A DNA stretch of 64,000 nucleotides from Vreelandella nanhaiensis (GTDB lineage: Bacteria; Pseudomonadota; Gammaproteobacteria; Pseudomonadales; Halomonadaceae): NCBI RefSeq assembly GCF_003990185.1, contig NZ_RZHF01000025.1, positions 143 through 64,142 on the forward strand, in the 5' to 3' direction. Both the position numbers and the translations under genes were made by a program. Under the pieces are notes generated by a model, which made no database searches, was not told the origin of the DNA, and was given only the letters and a program-made list of their open reading frames with translations. Positions 10,178-59,432 of the stretch are shown here, one piece after another; within the stretch, counting starts at the first letter, position 1; each line of letters starts with the position of its first letter.

Positions 10178-10354
10178 ATGTATGTCTACCGCATCATGCT
10201 GTTTCTGGTGTTTGGCGGTTACCTACTCTCTCCACTTCTGATGGATGGCTGGAGCAACCCAAGCGTTGCCTGGTACCGCCCGTTTGCGATTTGGGGTGTA
10301 TTGATTTCGCTGACGCTTTGGCTTGAGCAAAAAAGGAAGTTAGATGAGCGTTGA
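10178..10354 (+). CDS. cbrX: CbrX-like small membrane protein upstream of cbrA
   Basis: This ORF of 58 residues starts ten bases after the gluQ stop, behind TAAGGA. It ends 11 bases inside cbrA in another frame (TGA 10352-10354), which suggests translational coupling. It has two hydrophobic segments, about residues 5-22 and 37-50, separated by a short polar loop, and ends in a basic/acidic tail (EQKRKLDER). A small ORF called cbrX occupies the same position in Pseudomonas putida. I recall that it overlaps cbrA and affects its expression. Identity here rests on position and topology, not on a search. Confidence 0.72.
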   Translation: MYVYRIMLFLVFGGYLLSPLLMDGWSNPSVAWYRPFAIWGVLISLTLWLEQKRKLDER

Positions 10355-13286
10355 GTTAATCGGTGTCTTGCTACTGGGCATTGGGTACCTGGCCCTGCTG
10401 TTCGGTTGCGGCACTGCCGTGGAGCGTGGCTGGGTGCCAGCAAGCGTTACACGCCACCCAGTGGTCTATACACTTGCCTTGGGCGTTTATGCCAGTGCCT
10501 GGGCAATCTACGGTAGCGTTGAACTTGCCGCCCACGCAGGCTTTGGCTATCTGGCCTATTACCTGGGCGCAGCGGGAACCTTTCTGCTTGCCCCGGTGCT
10601 GCTGGTTCCCATCCAGCGGATTACCCGCACCTATCAACTTGCCTCTCTGGCGGACCTGTTTGCGTTTCGCTTTCGCTCGCGCTGGGCAGGCACCCTGGTC
10701 ACGCTGATCAGTCTAGTAGCGGTGTTGCCGCTTTTAGGCATTCAGGTACAAACTCTTAGTGATGCGATCCACTGGCTCACCGGTAGCCCGTATAGCTCAA
10801 GCGCCGCGCTGCTGTTTTGCGGGCTGATTGCCGTCTTTGCGGTGGTCTTCGGCGCACGGCCTAACCACTCCCGCCAAGACCCACTGATTAGCATTCTAGC
10901 CTTTGAATCGCTGATCAAGCTGTTCACCATGCTCTGCCTGGGAGCTGTGGCACTGTGGCTAGTATTTGATGGACCGCAAGATTTGCAGCGCTGGTTGGAA
11001 GGGCCAGGATTACCTGCCCAGCAGGCTACTCCGCAGCTAGAAGCCGCTCAGTGGCGAACGCTGCTGCTGCTATTTTTCGCCTCTGCCCTCATGATGCCGC
11101 ACCTGTTCCACATCACCTTTGCTGAAAACCTGTCGCGCCATACGCTGCTGCAGGCCAGCTGGGCGCTGCCGCTCTTCCTACTCCTGATGGCCCTTCCCGT
11201 TCCGCTTATCTGGTGGGCGGCACAATCAGTCAACAATGAGATACCAGTGGCGGCCTACGCGGTGTACATGATGAGCGAGCACTGGTGGGTCAAGGCGCTG
11301 GCGTTTATCGCAGGACTGGCCGCAGCCAGTGGCACCATGATCATGATCTCTCTGGCACTTTCCGGGATGGTGCTTAACCATATCGTGCTGGTAGCCAGAC
11401 CCCCGGAAGCGCGTAGTGACCTGTACGGCTGGCTGCTCTGGTTGCGTCGGGCACTGGTAGTCGGCGTAATCGTTAGCGGCTGGCTGTTTTATGAGGGGGT
11501 GGGGCGGCATCATGATCTGGCCAATCTGGGCATGACCTCCTTCGTGGGGATGGCCCAGTGCCTGCCCGGCATGCTGGCGCTGCTTTATTGGCCGGGAGCA
11601 AATCGCAAAGGCATGGTGGTCGGGCTTATCGCGGGCGTCGCGGTATGGCTTTGGGGGCTTTGGCTGCCGCTTATCTTCTCGCTACCCACGCCACCCCTGC
11701 CTTTCACCCACCTGATCCCGAGCGATGCACCGCCCTGGTATACGGTAACGCTGCTGTCGCTTGCCACCAATATTGTTCTCCTGATCGTGATATCGCTTTT
11801 CACGCGTATTTCAGAAGGTGAACGCTCGGCGGCGGAAGCCTGCTCGGTGGATGCGGTTATCCGCTCAAAACGCCTGCCGCTGGAAGCCGCCACGGCGGCT
11901 GATTTTTCCACCCACCTGGCCCAGGCCATTGGCGATGAAGCGGCCCAGCGCGAGGTCTCCCGGGCGCTGAGCGCACTCAAGCTAACCCCGCAAGAGCGCC
12001 GCCCCTACGCGCTGCGGCGCCTGCGCGACCGCATCCAGGCTAACCTGTCGGGTTTGATGGGCCCCTCAGTAGCGCGCGATATCGTTGACCGCTACCTGCC
12101 CTATCGCCATGACGATGCGCCTGTCACCGATGACATCCACTTTGTGGAAAGCCGCCTGGAAGCCTATCGGTCGCGCCTGACCGGGCTTGCTCGCGAGCTT
12201 GACGGATTGCGCCGTCACCATCGCCAGACGCTGGCTTACCTACCGGTGGGGCTATGCGTATTTGGCGATGACAAGGAGCTTCTGATGTGGAACCAGGCGC
12301 TCTCCCAGCTTTCAGGCATCAGCGGTGAAAGCGTTATCGGTTCACGCTGCGACAGTCTTCCCACCCCCTGGCCCGAGCTCTTGGGCAATGTCCTGCTGGC
12401 TACCCATACGCCGCTTTATAAACAGGCCGTCACGCTGCACGGCAAGGATTACTTTCTGACCCTGCACAAGGCGGAATTGAGCGGCCATGATAGCCGGGGT
12501 GGCAGCGTCATCCTGGTCGAGGACCATACCGAAATGAAGTGGCTGGAAGATGAACTGGTGCACGCCGCCCGCCTTGCCTCCATTGGCCAGCTGGCGGCCG
12601 GCGTCGCCCACGAGATCGGCAACCCGATAACCGGGATCTCATCGCTGGCGCAAAACCTGCGCTACGATACCCAGGACCCAGCCCTGCTTGAGACCGCCGA
12701 CCAGATTCAGCAGTTGACCCAACGCGTGACCAAGATCGTCAACTCCCTGGTCGGCTTCGCCCATGGCGGACGCCATGCGGGGCCGCCACCGGACTCGCCG
12801 GTGGCGCTTACCACGATAAGCGAAGACGCATTACACTTGATCCATCTGGCGCGCTCGGGTGAGGATGTAACTCTGACTAACGCTTGCCCTGAAGGGATAG
12901 TAGTGCGTGGTGATGCCCAGCGTCTGACCCAGGTGATGGTCAATCTGCTCAGCAATGCCCGTGACGCCTGCATGCCTGACGGCCAGGTGGTCATTACTGC
13001 CGGGCGCGAGGCAGGCAGCGCTTGGTGGCGGGTCAGTGATAACGGCCAGGGAATCGACCCGCGCGTGCGCGACCATCTGTTTGAGCCCTTTACCACGACC
13101 AAGCCCGCCGGCGAGGGAACAGGTCTTGGGCTATCGCTTGCGTACCAGATTATTAGTGAACACCAAGGCCGCATAGAGGTGGCCTCGCCACCTCCCCAAG
13201 AGTCACGCGGTACGGCCATTACTCTTTGGCTGCCGCTTTACCAACAGGATGACCAGCAACCTCATGCCCAGGATTCTGATTGTTGA
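10344..13286 (+). CDS. cbrA: Sensor histidine kinase CbrA with SLC5-type transporter domain
   Basis: Controls carbon and nitrogen balance through CbrB. The 980 residues comprise an N-terminal sodium/solute symporter (SLC5) domain of about 13 membrane segments to about residue 490, a STAC-like linker, a PAS region near 640-740, a HisKA domain with phospho-acceptor His756 in AHEIGNP, and a HATPase with N box [10 protein letters not shown], the DNGQGI G1 box and the GTGLGLSL G2 box. In Pseudomonas the SLC5 part transports histidine but is not the only signal input. The gene overlaps cbrX upstream and cbrB downstream, so the three form one translational unit. Confidence 0.95.
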
Positions 13287-14637
13287 AGATGAAGCGATTA
13301 TTCGCAGCGCCCTAAAGCGTTTGCTTGAGCGTCACGATTATACGGTCAGTGAGGCGGGCAGCGCCGAAGAAGCCGCCCAGCTGGCGCTTTGTGAGTTCAA
13401 CCTCATCATCAGTGACCTGCGTTTGCCAGGGGAGCCGGGGACCACGCTGATCAAGGCCGCCGCCCCTGCGCCGGTACTGATCATGACCAGCTATGCCAGC
13501 ATGCGCTCGGCGGTGGATGCCCTAAAGCAAGGCGCGGTCGACTATATTGCGAAACCGTTTGATCATACCGAGCTGCTAGAGACTATCGAGCGCATCCTGC
13601 ATCAGCAGGCGATGCAGCACAGCGAGCCGCCCGCAATTACCGATGATGGCGGTAGCCAGCAAATGATGATTGGTGACTGCGCCGCCATGCAGCAGGTATA
13701 TACGCGTATTCGCAAAACTGCGCCTGCCGATGTCACTGTACTGATTCTGGGCGAATCAGGTACCGGCAAAGAGCTTGTGGCCCGAGCCATTCATCAGCAG
13801 AGTAAGCGCGCCAAAGCACCGCTGATCAGTGTCAACTGCGCCGCCATTCCCGAAACCCTGATTGAGTCGGAGCTGTTCGGTCATGAGAAAGGTGCGTTTA
13901 CCGGGGCAAGCGCGGCACGCACCGGCCTTGTGGAAGCCGCCGATCAGGGCACACTATTTTTAGATGAGATTGGCGAACTGCCCCTTGATGCCCAGGCGCG
14001 CCTTTTGCGCGTGCTGCAAGAGGGGGAAATCCGCAAGATCGGCTCGGTAGAGACTCGCCACGTCAACGTTCGCCTGATTGCGGCCACCCACCGTGACCTG
14101 CGGGCACTATCCAAGAGCGGCGAGTTTCGTCTCGATCTTTACTACCGTTTGAACGTGATGCAGATTGAACTGCCTCCGCTTCGCGAACGCGAAGACGACG
14201 TGCTGCAGATTGCCGATATCCTGCTTAAAAAAGCCTGCAAGCGGCACGAGCGCCCGGAGCTGCGCCTTTCCAGGGCCGCCCGCCAAGACCTGCGCGATTA
14301 TCCGTGGCCCGGTAATGTACGCGAACTTGAAAATGCCCTGGAGCGCGGTGTCATTCTGGCTGAAGGGCATTTGATTCACCCTGATGACCTGGGGCTTGGC
14401 CCTGTCTCACCGCGCGCCCATGCAAGCTCGACGACATCCAACGGTGAAGAAAGCCTAGCGGAGGAAGAGGACGATTTGTCCCTTGAAGACTATTTCCAGC
14501 ACTTCGTGCTTGAGCATCAGGACCAAATGAGCGAAACCGAGTTGGCCCAGAAACTGGGGATCAGCCGGAAAAACCTTTGGGAGCGGCGTCAACGTTTGGG
14601 CATACCGCGTAAAAAAACCGCTCGGCGTCCTGGCTAG
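13264..14637 (+). CDS. cbrB: Sigma-54-dependent response regulator CbrB
   Basis: NtrC-family activator of 457 residues. The receiver domain has the acidic pocket in IVEDE, phospho-acceptor Asp51 in ISDLRLPG and the Lys of IAKPF. The AAA+ domain has Walker A GESGTGKE and the sigma-54 contact loop GAFTGA. The C-terminal Fis-type helix-turn-helix spans [23 protein letters not shown] 13264 ([10 protein letters not shown]) matches the family start. An in-frame ATG at 13249 would add five residues. It overlaps the cbrA 3' end. In Pseudomonas its principal target is the crcZ RNA, and a matching element lies immediately downstream here. Confidence 0.95.
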
Positions 14638-14759
14638 TGCGTTAGCGAAGCCGGCGATGCCAGCATTTCGCATCTTCGTCTTTTGGGCGCTGGCTTTCAT
14701 ACTCAAGGCTTACGACCAACGTCTAATATACTGATTTAAATAAAAAATAATCACTTTTT

Positions 14760-14845
14760 CGTTACCTCCGCAATGTTACCTGACCACACAACCCACCTAA
14801 AAAACACACACAAATGCGGTAACACTCACTAGCCCCATTGGTTAC
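14760..14845 (+). promoter_or_regulatory. Candidate CbrB upstream activating sites
   Basis: Four copies of the half-site GTTAC/GTAAC lie in 86 bases: cGTTACc (14761-14765), TGTTAC (14774-14779), the reverse GTAACA (14819-14824) and gGTTACt (14841-14845). The CbrB operator described in Pseudomonas putida is an inverted TGTTAC/GTAACA repeat. The half-site matches, but the spacing here is irregular and no pair has the reported 14-base spacer. The sites lie 55-140 bases upstream of the sigma-54 promoter, a normal range for an NtrC-type activator. Confidence 0.6.
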
Positions 14846-14898
14846 TTGGCACGCCAATTCAACCCCAAACTACTGAAATATATAAACTCCCCAACAAG

Positions 14899-14914
14899 TG
14901 GCACAACGAGTGCA
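14899..14914 (+). promoter_or_regulatory. Sigma-54 promoter of the CrcZ-like RNA
   Basis: The sequence TGGCACAACGAGTGCA matches the sigma-54 consensus TGGCACGNNNNTTGCA, with GG at 14900-14901 and GC at 14912-14913 at exactly the canonical 12-base register. Transcription would start near 14924-14926, just before the first A-rich motif. No ORF follows for almost 600 bases, so the product should be an untranslated RNA. Confidence 0.8.
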
Positions 14915-14924
14915 ATATATTCAG

Positions 14925-15375
14925 GTAAGAAAAACAAACTGGGCCAAGCGGTGGGTCTTCAATAAAAACAACATGACGCCACCCCAACCTGAGCCATAAC
15001 AAAAACAATACGGCCGGGCGAGATAACAGCACCAATAACAATAACAGGCTTACATCTCACGACTTGCTGGCGCTAAGAAAAATAAGCGCAGCCAATAAAA
15101 ACAACATATAGCAAGTGCCCAAAACGGACGCGACGTACACCAGGTGATCTGCACACCAATAAAAATAACAGCAGTGAGTGTGTACACCCCCGGAACCAAC
15201 AACAATACGCCGGGGAAGAAAAGTTCGCGGTTGGATTATTGTTTTGAATACGAGGCGGTCGGAAACGCCTACCGACTGCGGTGCGTATTCAGGGCGATGT
15301 GCCATCATGAAGAAAAACAGCAGCATGGACGCTGATTAAATACTTTACAGGGGAGGCTCCCTTAGCCTCCCCTTT
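14925..15375 (+). ncRNA. crcZ: CrcZ-like small RNA, predicted Hfq/Crc decoy
   Basis: An RNA of about 450 bases is predicted from the sigma-54 promoter to a rho-independent terminator, in the cbrB-pcnB gap where Pseudomonas encodes CrcZ (about 400 bases). It carries clusters of the AAnAAnAA (CA) motif at about 14927-14938, 14961-14971, 14998-15008, 15034-15044, 15075-15085, 15094-15104, 15158-15168, 15198-15205 and 15310-15317. CA motifs are the Hfq-distal-face/Crc binding signal in catabolite repression. Several sit in hairpin loops: AACAACAA inside CCCCGG/CCGGGG (15188-15215) and AAGAAAAATA inside GCGCT/AGCGC (15070-15089). A larger hairpin spans 15246-15290. Boundaries and function are inferred. 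The two minus-strand ORFs across it look spurious. Confidence 0.82.
15350..15375 (+). terminator. Rho-independent terminator of the CrcZ-like RNA
   Basis: A perfect 9-bp stem GGGGAGGCT/AGCCTCCCC with a five-base loop, followed by TTT. It lies about 134 bases before the pcnB ATG, which separates the RNA from pcnB. Confidence 0.85.
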
Positions 15376-15508
15376 CCGCGTTTAAAAACTTGAGCGCCCG
15401 TAAACCCACAAGCGAGACTTTGCAAGCGTAAAGGGGTCGGCTACACTCAGCCACTTACTGCTTACTTCACGGCCACTTTTTAGATACCCTGCGAGTCGAT
15501 ATCGCCGC

Positions 15509-16891
15509 ATGTTCAAAGGATTTACCCGTTTCTTACATAATCAGGAAGAGCAAGTGAAAACGCTGCTCGATCCCCAGGAGAGTGTAGCCACTCTCAGCCC
15601 TCGTATTATCCCCCGGTCCGAGCACCCCGTTTCTCGCCAGCACATTAGCGACGCCGCATTAAAGGTCCTTTATCGCCTTAACGGTGCAGGCTTTGACGCT
15701 TATCTGGTGGGCGGCTGTATTCGCGATGCGCTGCTTGGCAAAATGCCCAAGGATTTTGACGTGGCCACCAACGCCACGCCTGAGCAAGTGCGCGACCTGT
15801 TTCGCAACTCGCGCCTGATCGGTCGGCGGTTTCGTATAGTGCACGTCCGCTTTGGCCGTGAGGTCATTGAAGTGACCACCTTCCGAGGCAAGCCTCAGGA
15901 TGAGCACGGGGAAAATATTGCCCACCAGTCTGACGCGGGCCTGCTGCTGCGCGATAACGTATGGGGCAGTATTGAAGAGGATGCCGTGCGGCGTGACTTT
16001 ACCGTCAACGCGCTGTACTACAACATCGCCGACTTTAGCCTGCATGACTTTGCCAACGGCGCCCAGGATATAGAATCGCGCACGCTGCGCCTGATTGGCG
16101 ACCCGGCCACGCGCTATCGCGAAGACCCGGTACGCATGCTGCGCGCCGTACGCTTTGCCGCTAAGCTCGGCTTTACCATTGAGCCGGCTACCGAAGCGCC
16201 GATGTACGATCTTGCACCGTTATTGCTGCAAATTCCGCCAGCGCGGTTGTTTGACGAAGTGCTCAAGATGTTCATGTCTGGCCACGGGCTTACCACCTTC
16301 CGCCTGCTCAGCCACTACGGGCTGTTCGGCATGCTCTTTCCCGAATCGGAAGAAGCCATGGCGGATGCGGCGTGGGCGGAAAAACTGATTGAATTTGCCC
16401 TTGCCAATACCGACAAGCGCATCGCTGAAGATCGCCCAGTAACGCCGGCGTTCCTGCTGGCCGCCTTCTTGTGGGCACCGGTTGCCCAGCGCCAAGCTGA
16501 ACTTGAGAGCGAAGGCATGCCTGCCATCCCTGCCCTGCAGACAGCTGCACAGGAAGTCGTTTCGCGCCAGTTGGAGCATACGTCGATTCCCAAGCGCTTT
16601 GGCATGCCCATGCGTGATATCTGGGAGCTTCAGACCCGTCTGCCGTTACGGCGCGGCAAGCGAGCCTTCCAGACCCGTGAGCATCCGCGTTTCAGGGCCG
16701 CTTATGATCTACTGCTTTTGCGTGAGCAGGCTGGCGAAATACCGCGTGGTTTAGGCGACTGGTGGACAGCCTTCCAGCAGGGCGATGAGCATGAGCAGCG
16801 CCGCTTGCTTCAAAAAGTGGGTGCTGACCCGGCAAGCCAGGGTGACCGTCGGCGCAAACGGCGTCGCAAGCCGTCGCGCAGCTCAGAATAG
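15509..16891 (+). CDS. pcnB: Poly(A) polymerase I
   Basis: Adds 3' poly(A) tails that mark RNAs for decay. The 460-residue protein has the class II nucleotidyltransferase head: VGGCIRDALLG, then the metal-binding DFDVATNATP (the two aspartates), then RRFRIVHVRFG. The tRNA-nucleotidyltransferase-like RDFTVNALYY segment and the DPVRMLRAVRFAAKLGF motif follow, and the C-terminus is basic (RRRKRRRKPSR). The N-terminal extension of about 45 residues is typical of PcnB rather than CCA-adding enzyme. It is followed by folK in the usual order. Confidence 0.95.
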   Translation: MFKGFTRFLHNQEEQVKTLLDPQESVATLSPRIIPRSEHPVSRQHISDAALKVLYRLNGAGFDAYLVGGCIRDALLGKMPKDFDVATNATPEQVRDLFRNSRLIGRRFRIVHVRFGREVIEVTTFRGKPQDEHGENIAHQSDAGLLLRDNVWGSIEEDAVRRDFTVNALYYNIADFSLHDFANGAQDIESRTLRLIGDPATRYREDPVRMLRAVRFAAKLGFTIEPATEAPMYDLAPLLLQIPPARLFDEVLKMFMSGHGLTTFRLLSHYGLFGMLFPESEEAMADAAWAEKLIEFALANTDKRIAEDRPVTPAFLLAAFLWAPVAQRQAELESEGMPAIPALQTAAQEVVSRQLEHTSIPKRFGMPMRDIWELQTRLPLRRGKRAFQTREHPRFRAAYDLLLLREQAGEIPRGLGDWWTAFQQGDEHEQRRLLQKVGADPASQGDRRRKRRRKPSRSSE

Positions 16892-31373: not shown

Positions 31374-31450
<77 letters not shown>

Positions 31451-31562
31451 TCAATCTAGGTCGACGATAATAGACACTTGAACCACTTACGTCAAGTTAT
31501 CTTTTTCGCTTCAGGTGCCAAACCTGGTTTTCTCTGACAAGCTGGCGAGCCAGCAAAACAGA

Positions 31563-31649
31563 TGGTGCCGAAGGCGGGACTTGAACCCGCACGACCATAC
31601 GGTCACTACCCCCTCAAGATAGCGTGTCTACCAATTCCACCACTTCGGC
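31563..31649 (-). tRNA. leuU: tRNA-Leu (GAG)
   Basis: An 87-base class II tRNA with a long variable arm and encoded CCA. The acceptor stem is GCCGAAG/CTTCGGC, and anticodon GAG is complementary to 31613-31615 in the loop TTGAGGG. It reads CUC and CUU codons. Its place directly downstream of secG matches leuU of E. coli. Confidence 0.95.
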
Positions 31650-59052: not shown

Positions 59053-59432
59053 GGGGGCGACATGGTTTCGACGCCGGTGACAACCCTTGCGGTGCATGCC
59101 GAGAGCGTGATGTATCTCGTAAATCCCACATCACGAAAAATAGTCGCAAATGACGAAAACTACGCTCAAGGCGCGCTAGCAGCTTAAACTCTGTTAGCTT
59201 CTTGTCTGGCCCCAAAGTGATGTGCCTATTCATCGCGGCGGGGATATGAGCTAAAGCTGATAGGATCGCGGTTGGTGGTGTCTTCTCGTCAACCGTTAAA
59301 CTTTAGAAGGCTCGCGTGGCTGAATCCTGATCGTCGGAGTCAGTTGCGTTAAAGCAAATGACGAAATCTAAGCATGTAGAGCCAATAGGCGCGTGCTGGC
59401 GGACGCGGGTTCAATTCCCGCCGCCTCCACCA
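59053..59432 (+). ncRNA. ssrA: tmRNA (ssrA)
   Basis: The 380-base gene begins GGGGGCGACATGGTTTCGAC and ends in GGTTCAATTCCCGCCGCCTCC plus ACCA. The acceptor stem GGGGGCG/CGCCTCC contains one G-U pair. The tag frame starts at GCA 59146 and ends at TAA 59184-59186, encoding ANDENYAQGALAA. The C-terminal LAA is the ClpXP/ClpAP degron. The 3' end is a frequent integration site for islands, but the sequence downstream shows no integrase or repeated attachment core. Confidence 0.97.

Follow-up and report, generated by a model that had tools for sequence, protein, structure and literature searches.

The window, by which we mean the whole stretch of 64,000 nucleotides analysed from Vreelandella nanhaiensis, carries cbrA, cbrB and pcnB on its forward strand, with a candidate regulatory RNA gene between the last two. 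The features, with positions counted along the window, are as follows.

10344..13286, + strand: cbrA, encoding an SLC5 transporter-histidine kinase fusion (980 aa; HisKA and HATPase_c domains)
13249..14637, + strand: cbrB, encoding a sigma-54 response regulator (Response_reg and Sigma54_activat domains)
14774..14779, + strand: CbrB forward subsite TGTTAC, 125 bases 5' of the -24 box
14819..14824, + strand: CbrB reverse subsite GTAACA, 80 bases 5' of the -24 box
14899..14914, + strand: conserved sigma-54 promoter TGGCAC-N6-TGCA (TGGCACAACGAGTGCA, -24/-12), 10 of 11 consensus positions
14923..15375, + strand: predicted CrcZ-like non-coding RNA of about 450 nt, its start placed from the promoter
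14927..15205, + strand: eight AAn-repeat motifs forming an array, located in single strands or hairpin loops
15225..15335, + strand: near-invariant, family-specific 3' domain, a long hairpin with a variable apical loop and the ninth motif
15349..15375, + strand: terminator-like hairpin with a short U-tract (helix 19; 97.7% of cells paired)
15509..16891, + strand: pcnB, encoding poly(A) polymerase, the syntenic marker (TIGR01942, 531 bits over cut-off)

The cbrA and cbrB genes overlap (10344-13286 and 13249-14637), and their products form an SLC5 (SSS)-histidine kinase fusion adjoining a sigma-54 response regulator. A phmmer search matched CbrA residues 1-589 to 10ed_A, an entry named as a histidine kinase (E 1.7e-178). 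From PMC13022988 and the SLC5 length of the match, we infer that 10ed is the CbrA transceptor. Because the Pfam domain search listed no transporter domain for CbrA, its SLC5 part is assigned from the 10ed match. CbrB matches at E≤1e-100 were obtained in 57 of 58 genomes, counting that of the window. The cbrB-pcnB gap, originally predicted to span about 870 bases without a credible gene, measures 871 bases (14638-15508) and contains no credible open reading frame (ORF). Elsewhere in the window, Rfam cut-offs were exceeded by a ribosomal S15 leader (RF00114; 24923-25047, minus strand), a tmRNA (59053-59432), and two tRNAs (31377-31649).

The near-perfect sigma-54 promoter described in the original prediction was recovered at 14899 and recurs in all 37 same-genus genomes, where it lies 194-266 bases past the cbrB stop and agrees with 9-10 of 11 consensus positions. 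Because the pattern itself is frequent by chance (28 matches with at most two mismatches in the window versus 47 in shuffles), its support comes from this conservation. Upstream are the two CbrB subsites, TGTTAC and GTAACA, as given in portions of a Pseudomonas putida CbrB study (PMC6296734). Both are exact in 37 of 37 genus members, the first at -114 to -126 and the second at -79 or -80. Two exact hexamers are rare by chance: when the window's upstream stretch was shuffled 500 times, 4 shuffles reached this number. Both are exact in all 43 whole genomes of the same family with cbrB that were examined. Among the matches listed, a script found both in 50 of 51 named loci with cbrB; in the 51st (L251) the promoter pattern failed, yet both hexamers are visible in the sequence. 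A Pseudomonadaceae-type genome (G056) has a similar layout, with the forward subsite at -124, the reverse subsite at -103, and a near-match at -80. The candidate gene thereby has the RpoN promoter and CbrB subsites of a CrcZ-type locus.

Beyond the promoter, nine AAnAAnAA clusters, or CA motifs as defined in PMC12533007, start at 14927, 14961, 14998, 15034, 15075, 15094, 15158, 15198, and 15310. The eight to nine clusters first proposed for this strand were thus counted as nine in 14899-15375, versus a mean of 1.08 and a maximum of 5 in 2000 dinucleotide shuffles, and no 480-base segment outside this region has more than three anywhere in the 64 kb. Several such motifs are characteristic of CrcZ-type RNAs. 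In an alignment of 22 of the 37 same-genus RNAs, the A positions of the motifs are 94% identical to the window, whereas the N positions are 53% identical and the remaining 5' array is 69% identical, so the A-rich motifs are conserved among relatives as anticipated. The accessible text of PMC8266614 describes (AAN)n or (ARN)n repeats as engaging six pockets of the Hfq distal face, with Crc joining the complex. The triplet-register constraint therefore matches what Hfq distal-face binding asks for.

The predicted RNA has a fold z score of -5.17, and its centroid structure leaves 92 of 93 motif bases unpaired, compared with 181 of the first 300 bases. When the fold derived from the window is applied to the alignment, 90.7% of cells are paired. 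Two-sided changes occur in 40 of its 103 pairs, versus 16.0 in shuffles and 14-26 with slid partners, where the slid control favours the fold (it was derived from one aligned sequence) and the shuffle control ignores relatedness. These data bear on the idea that the region is low-complexity A-rich sequence or hides a small protein, for which an 89-aa minus-strand ORF in the region could be cited. Both the motif shuffles and the covariation oppose it, as do differences in spacer and loop length among relatives, which are not multiples of three. We regard this idea as already largely refuted and its probability as negligible.

The RNA is predicted to end in a G+C-rich stem of 10 pairs (15349-15373), six of which show two-sided, compensatory change. 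The strong terminator of the original prediction therefore stands with respect to its stem but not its U-tract, which has two or three U, and the terminator scan of the window did not list this hairpin. Among the matches listed, pcnB was seen to follow the element in 76 of the 79 named loci, and this steady association might suggest that the region is a long 5' leader of pcnB, or else a 3' untranslated region of cbrB, with no separate RNA gene. Such an arrangement is very improbable, because a sigma-54 promoter with CbrB sites belongs to the region itself, which also has a terminator-like stem, marked by covariation, 133 bases before pcnB, and because the element and its promoter survive the loss of cbrB in relatives described below.

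Neither the CbrB subsites nor the conserved 3' domain figured in the original prediction. We modelled the 3' domain (15225-15335) with a covariance model, R1, built from 21 same-genus sequences. R1 matched 18 of 390 sampled genomes of the order, comprising all 18 of the window's family, once each (six belong to the genus from which R1 was built), and it matched none of the 372 order genomes outside the family under the stricter filters of large searches. A coding role for the domain was ruled out, since its length varies by non-multiples of three. The AAn motifs could pair with its U-rich strand UUAUUGUUUU, to which they are complementary, so the RNA might conceivably switch between this pairing and the hairpin.

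At 94%, the 3' domain also matches the motif A positions in conservation, and its core helix holds five U.G pairs that seldom vary, as if something else read each side. Together with its presence in every sampled genome of the family, these traits could mean that the domain carries the main function of the RNA through a protein or RNA partner other than Hfq and Crc, and that the array only stabilizes the transcript or recruits Hfq. We consider this unlikely, because the array has a triplet-register constraint of its own and because a promoter followed by motifs is also seen in other families, where the sampled genomes lack a 3'-domain match. The family-specific 3' domain nevertheless constitutes a highly constrained RNA element for which no assigned role was found.

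The preferred reading, in which the array would act as a decoy for Hfq and Crc, was tied in the original prediction to the presence of these partners, and the same genome encodes both. Its single Hfq match aligns with P. aeruginosa Hfq residues 1-78 (E 5.9e-40), and one of its four Exo_endo_phos matches corresponds to P. aeruginosa Crc (249.7 bits). A Crc-type match alone cannot separate Crc from a nuclease. In an alignment with the nuclease 2jc5, the Crc of the window genome has N, T, and F in place of E, D, and H, which we take to be the catalytic residues. Crc-type matches at E≤1e-30 were found in 56 of the 58 genomes (own included), with 31-51% identity outside the genus. One of the two remaining genomes is 75% complete, and the other (G054) also lacks CbrB at E≤1e-100.

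Candidate target mRNAs were sought with motif patterns. The pattern AAYAAYAAGAGG occurs at six places in the window genome versus none in a reversed control, and five of these stand 6-12 bases before ORFs. The encoded proteins resemble an aspartate-glyoxylate aminotransferase and a UrtD/LivG ATPase (both resemblances falling below NCBIfam cut-offs), succinylglutamate desuccinylase, DctP, and an SDR dehydrogenase. At the sixth place, the rule used gave no ORF longer than 40 aa. The target pattern contains a Shine-Dalgarno piece and hence is found before genes anyway. Wider patterns were not enriched, with 9 places versus 7 in the control for AANAANAAGAGG and 3 versus 1 for AACAAYAANAAN{3,13}ATG. 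Evidence for motif-bearing target mRNAs in these sequences is thin, and we claim no genome-wide regulon because the wider patterns are not enriched.

The window RNA shares with Pseudomonas CrcZ (with CrcY and CrcX) its slot between cbrB and pcnB, its sigma-54 promoter with TGTTAC/GTAACA subsites, several AAnAAnAA motifs, a terminator-like hairpin, and a genome carrying Hfq and Crc. It differs in that its 8-9 motifs lie mostly in one 5' array, R1 did not find its 3' domain in the sampled Pseudomonas-type genomes, and each of the 18 genomes of the family has one R1 match, versus two Rfam CrcZ matches in several Pseudomonas-type genomes. The RNA also falls below the cut-off of the Rfam CrcZ model (RF01675), scoring 15.3 bits against 95, and searches of the window at gathering and E-value thresholds returned CrcZ only as sub-threshold pieces. 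The suspicion that this model is too narrow for the lineage was thus borne out. Across the order, RF01675 matched 71 of 390 genomes at E≤1e-3, and 19 exceeded the cut-off. The latter belong only to families f21, taken as Pseudomonadaceae from the name of the Rfam family, and f2; matches below the cut-off extend to further families. None of the 18 sampled genomes of the window's own family passed the cut-off, and one had a match (E 8.4e-4).

We also examined a short sequence as a link to CrcZ. The 8-mer GGTTGGAT is exact in 33 of 37 gaps of the genus and in a Pseudomonas-type genome (L049), is absent in exact form from the other 19 non-family gaps examined, and has a core, GGTTGG, that is common to most other CrcZ loci examined. 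These sequences may signify homology with Pseudomonas CrcZ. Overall, the window RNA and CrcZ are probably the same locus by descent, and the window RNA is distinct from CrcZ in its failed Rfam test and its own family-specific 3' domain. Protein-sponge RNAs such as RsmZ and CsrB likewise use repeated hairpin-loop motifs to titrate an RNA-binding protein, and they differ in pairing GGA motifs with CsrA rather than AAn motifs with Hfq. A 2022 review (PMC8871633), in the portion available, describes the cbrA-cbrB-crcZ arrangement only from Pseudomonas and Azotobacter. By description, Azotobacter vinelandii CrcZ/CrcY has the same arrangement as the window, but within Pseudomonadaceae.

Within the genus, the promoter, both subsites, and 7-10 clusters past the promoter are present in 37 of 37 genomes, and six of six further genomes of the family with cbrB have the same layout. 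An exact DNA pattern taken from the 3' domain matched at least 119 named stretches, of which 80 were inspected. Seventy-nine of these come from Halomonas, Vreelandella, Salinicola, Kushneria, Chromohalobacter, Cobetia, Halotalea, and like genera, including gammaproteobacterium MFB021, which groups with Salinicola in a pcnB tree. The remaining match, in Pseudomonas guguanensis (L197), was a chance hit in a repeat without motifs and was dropped. Among the matches listed, the named genome closest to the window is that of Vreelandella populi (CbrB 100%).

The layout extends beyond the family. In 16 of 20 non-family order genomes with CbrB, the 600 bases past cbrB contain a promoter-like site and, after it, 2-12 motif clusters, although two of these have a degenerate -12 element and several gap counts are not above their shuffles. 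Two of the remaining four are matched by the Rfam CrcZ model on a different contig (G037, 110.8 bits; G043, 48.9 bits). Neither a decoy element nor a CrcZ match was found in the other two (G045 and G053) or in the order genome G071, where cbrB is present. At least one exact subsite lies upstream in all 14 order genomes whose promoter was located by pattern, and both do in 10 of the 14, at distances that are not always equal. CbrA with its SLC5 and kinase parts precedes cbrB in 12 of 14 representative order genomes. Two loci (L123 and L124, in G048 and G050) keep cbrB, promoter, motifs, and pcnB, and no CbrA-like kinase was found in roughly 3.5 kb upstream of them. By eye, the cbrB-pcnB gaps of two others (L053 in G041 and L062 in G047) seem to contain a pair of sigma-54-type promoters with AAn motifs after each one, and thus two decoy RNAs in tandem.

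Passages of the 2022 review and of a 2018 regulon study (PMC8871633 and PMC6296734) call CbrAB exclusive to Pseudomonadaceae. Outside the order, we obtained a strong CbrB match in 25 of 274 class genomes searched and examined 24 of them (L150-L173; G688 was left out). Both CbrA parts lie beside cbrB in 22 of the 24; one locus is truncated at a contig end, and another has no CbrA part there. None of the 24 has pcnB within the stretch examined, and over as much as 900 bases past cbrB each shows at most one motif cluster. CbrAB beyond the order without the motif array indicates that CbrAB is wider in distribution than the RNA, which appears, from the genomes sampled, to be confined to the order. 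In the openly licensed literature, we found no prior report of CrcZ or CbrA in Halomonas, of CrcZ in Marinobacter or Alcanivorax, of CrcZ homologs outside Pseudomonadales, or of Crc/Hfq catabolite repression in Halomonas. The available part of a marine metatranscriptome study (PMC5073097) includes cbrAB transcripts and does not assign them to Halomonas.

Some relatives keep the RNA and lack cbrAB. Among the 79 named loci in the matches listed, 51 have cbrB and six have gluQ adjacent without it; cbrB was not seen within the other 22 loci. The six are three Salinicola, Kushneria avicenniae, Halotalea alkalilenta, and a Halomonas metagenome-assembled genome (MAG), each judged at the locus. The same gluQ-RNA-pcnB order, with neither cbrA nor cbrB between, occurs in G072, G210, and G290 (one genus) and in G165. 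No CbrB ortholog was found genome-wide in these four (best score 323 bits at 42% identity, compared with 801 bits and 82% for the cbrB-bearing genome G137). The first three group with Kushneria avicenniae in the pcnB tree (100/99), and we refer to the three together with K. avicenniae as the Kushneria group. The sigma-54-type promoter, array, and 3' domain are retained in Salinicola, Halotalea, the Kushneria group, and the MAG, with a degenerate promoter in Halotalea and the MAG. The pcnB tree requires at least two changes between lost and kept cbrB, and because its outgroups have long branches, one deep loss and several are not separable in it.

The CbrB sites follow the presence of cbrB. None of the six named loci without cbrB has both subsites by script, versus the 50 of 51 given above. 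Likewise, no exact CbrB site was found near -125 or -80 in ten upstream regions without cbrB that were compared (in one, L227 of Salinicola, cbrB was not seen within the locus; L179 and L235 are one genome, counted once). The upstream region of G072 has GTAACC at -78 and TGTTAC at -67. Salinicola upstream regions (L179, L208, L227, and L257) share conserved blocks such as GTCTAAGCGAAA and CGCCACCCTGTCGCCA, which are possibly sites of another sigma-54 activator.

Three of the four Kushneria-group genomes (L175, L177, and L248) have an exact GCAC-N7-GTGC, which we take to be an NtrC-type palindrome, at -111 to -113 with differing spacers. Upstream regions with cbrB have no exact copy in 43 and a copy within one mismatch in 2 of 43. 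As a control, the ntrC loci of G072, G290, and G210 each hold one such palindrome upstream of the presumed ntrB, although in G290 it falls within the longest ORF that can be read. On the NtrC model, the regulator of G072 reaches 739.6 bits and exceeds the cut-off, and those of G290 and G210 were named by likeness. A literature check yielded no usable NtrC consensus. No exact site was found upstream of the RNA in G210, Salinicola, Halotalea, or the MAG, so the NtrC idea is limited to three of the four Kushneria-group genomes. The four are related and hence not independent cases. We see about equal chances for and against a scenario in which the decoy RNA is a movable output module that outlived its activator at least twice in Halomonadaceae, and in which NtrC took over the Kushneria-group promoter, such that Hfq/Crc repression would be relieved when nitrogen, and not carbon, is scarce. 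The genera whose locus lacks cbrAB offer a natural experiment on which input drives the decoy RNA after loss of its sensor.

In the window and its genome, CbrA, CbrB, both subsites, the promoter, the motif array, Hfq, and Crc are all identifiable, as would be needed for the CbrA-CbrB-CrcZ-like circuit originally proposed. With the predicted fold, the motif constraint, the promoter, the activator sites, and the partner genes recognized by sequence analysis, we think it highly probable that the region is a CbrAB- and sigma-54-driven gene for an Hfq/Crc decoy RNA that works like CrcZ. On poor carbon sources, CbrA would phosphorylate CbrB, which would bind TGTTAC/GTAACA about 80-125 bases upstream and open the sigma-54 promoter at 14899. 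In the resulting transcript of about 450 nt, a conserved fold would present eight to nine AAn-repeat motifs in its loops. By the mechanism known from Pseudomonas, these motifs would occupy the Hfq distal face, and Crc would stabilize the complex. Capture of Hfq would free catabolic and uptake mRNAs that carry the same motif at their ribosome sites. We infer that the window RNA is transcribed, binds Hfq, and relieves repression. Halomonas and Vreelandella are used for bioplastic and ectoine production. If the proposed function is correct, carbon control of Hfq and Crc by a decoy RNA would be a property of much of the wider order, these two genera included.
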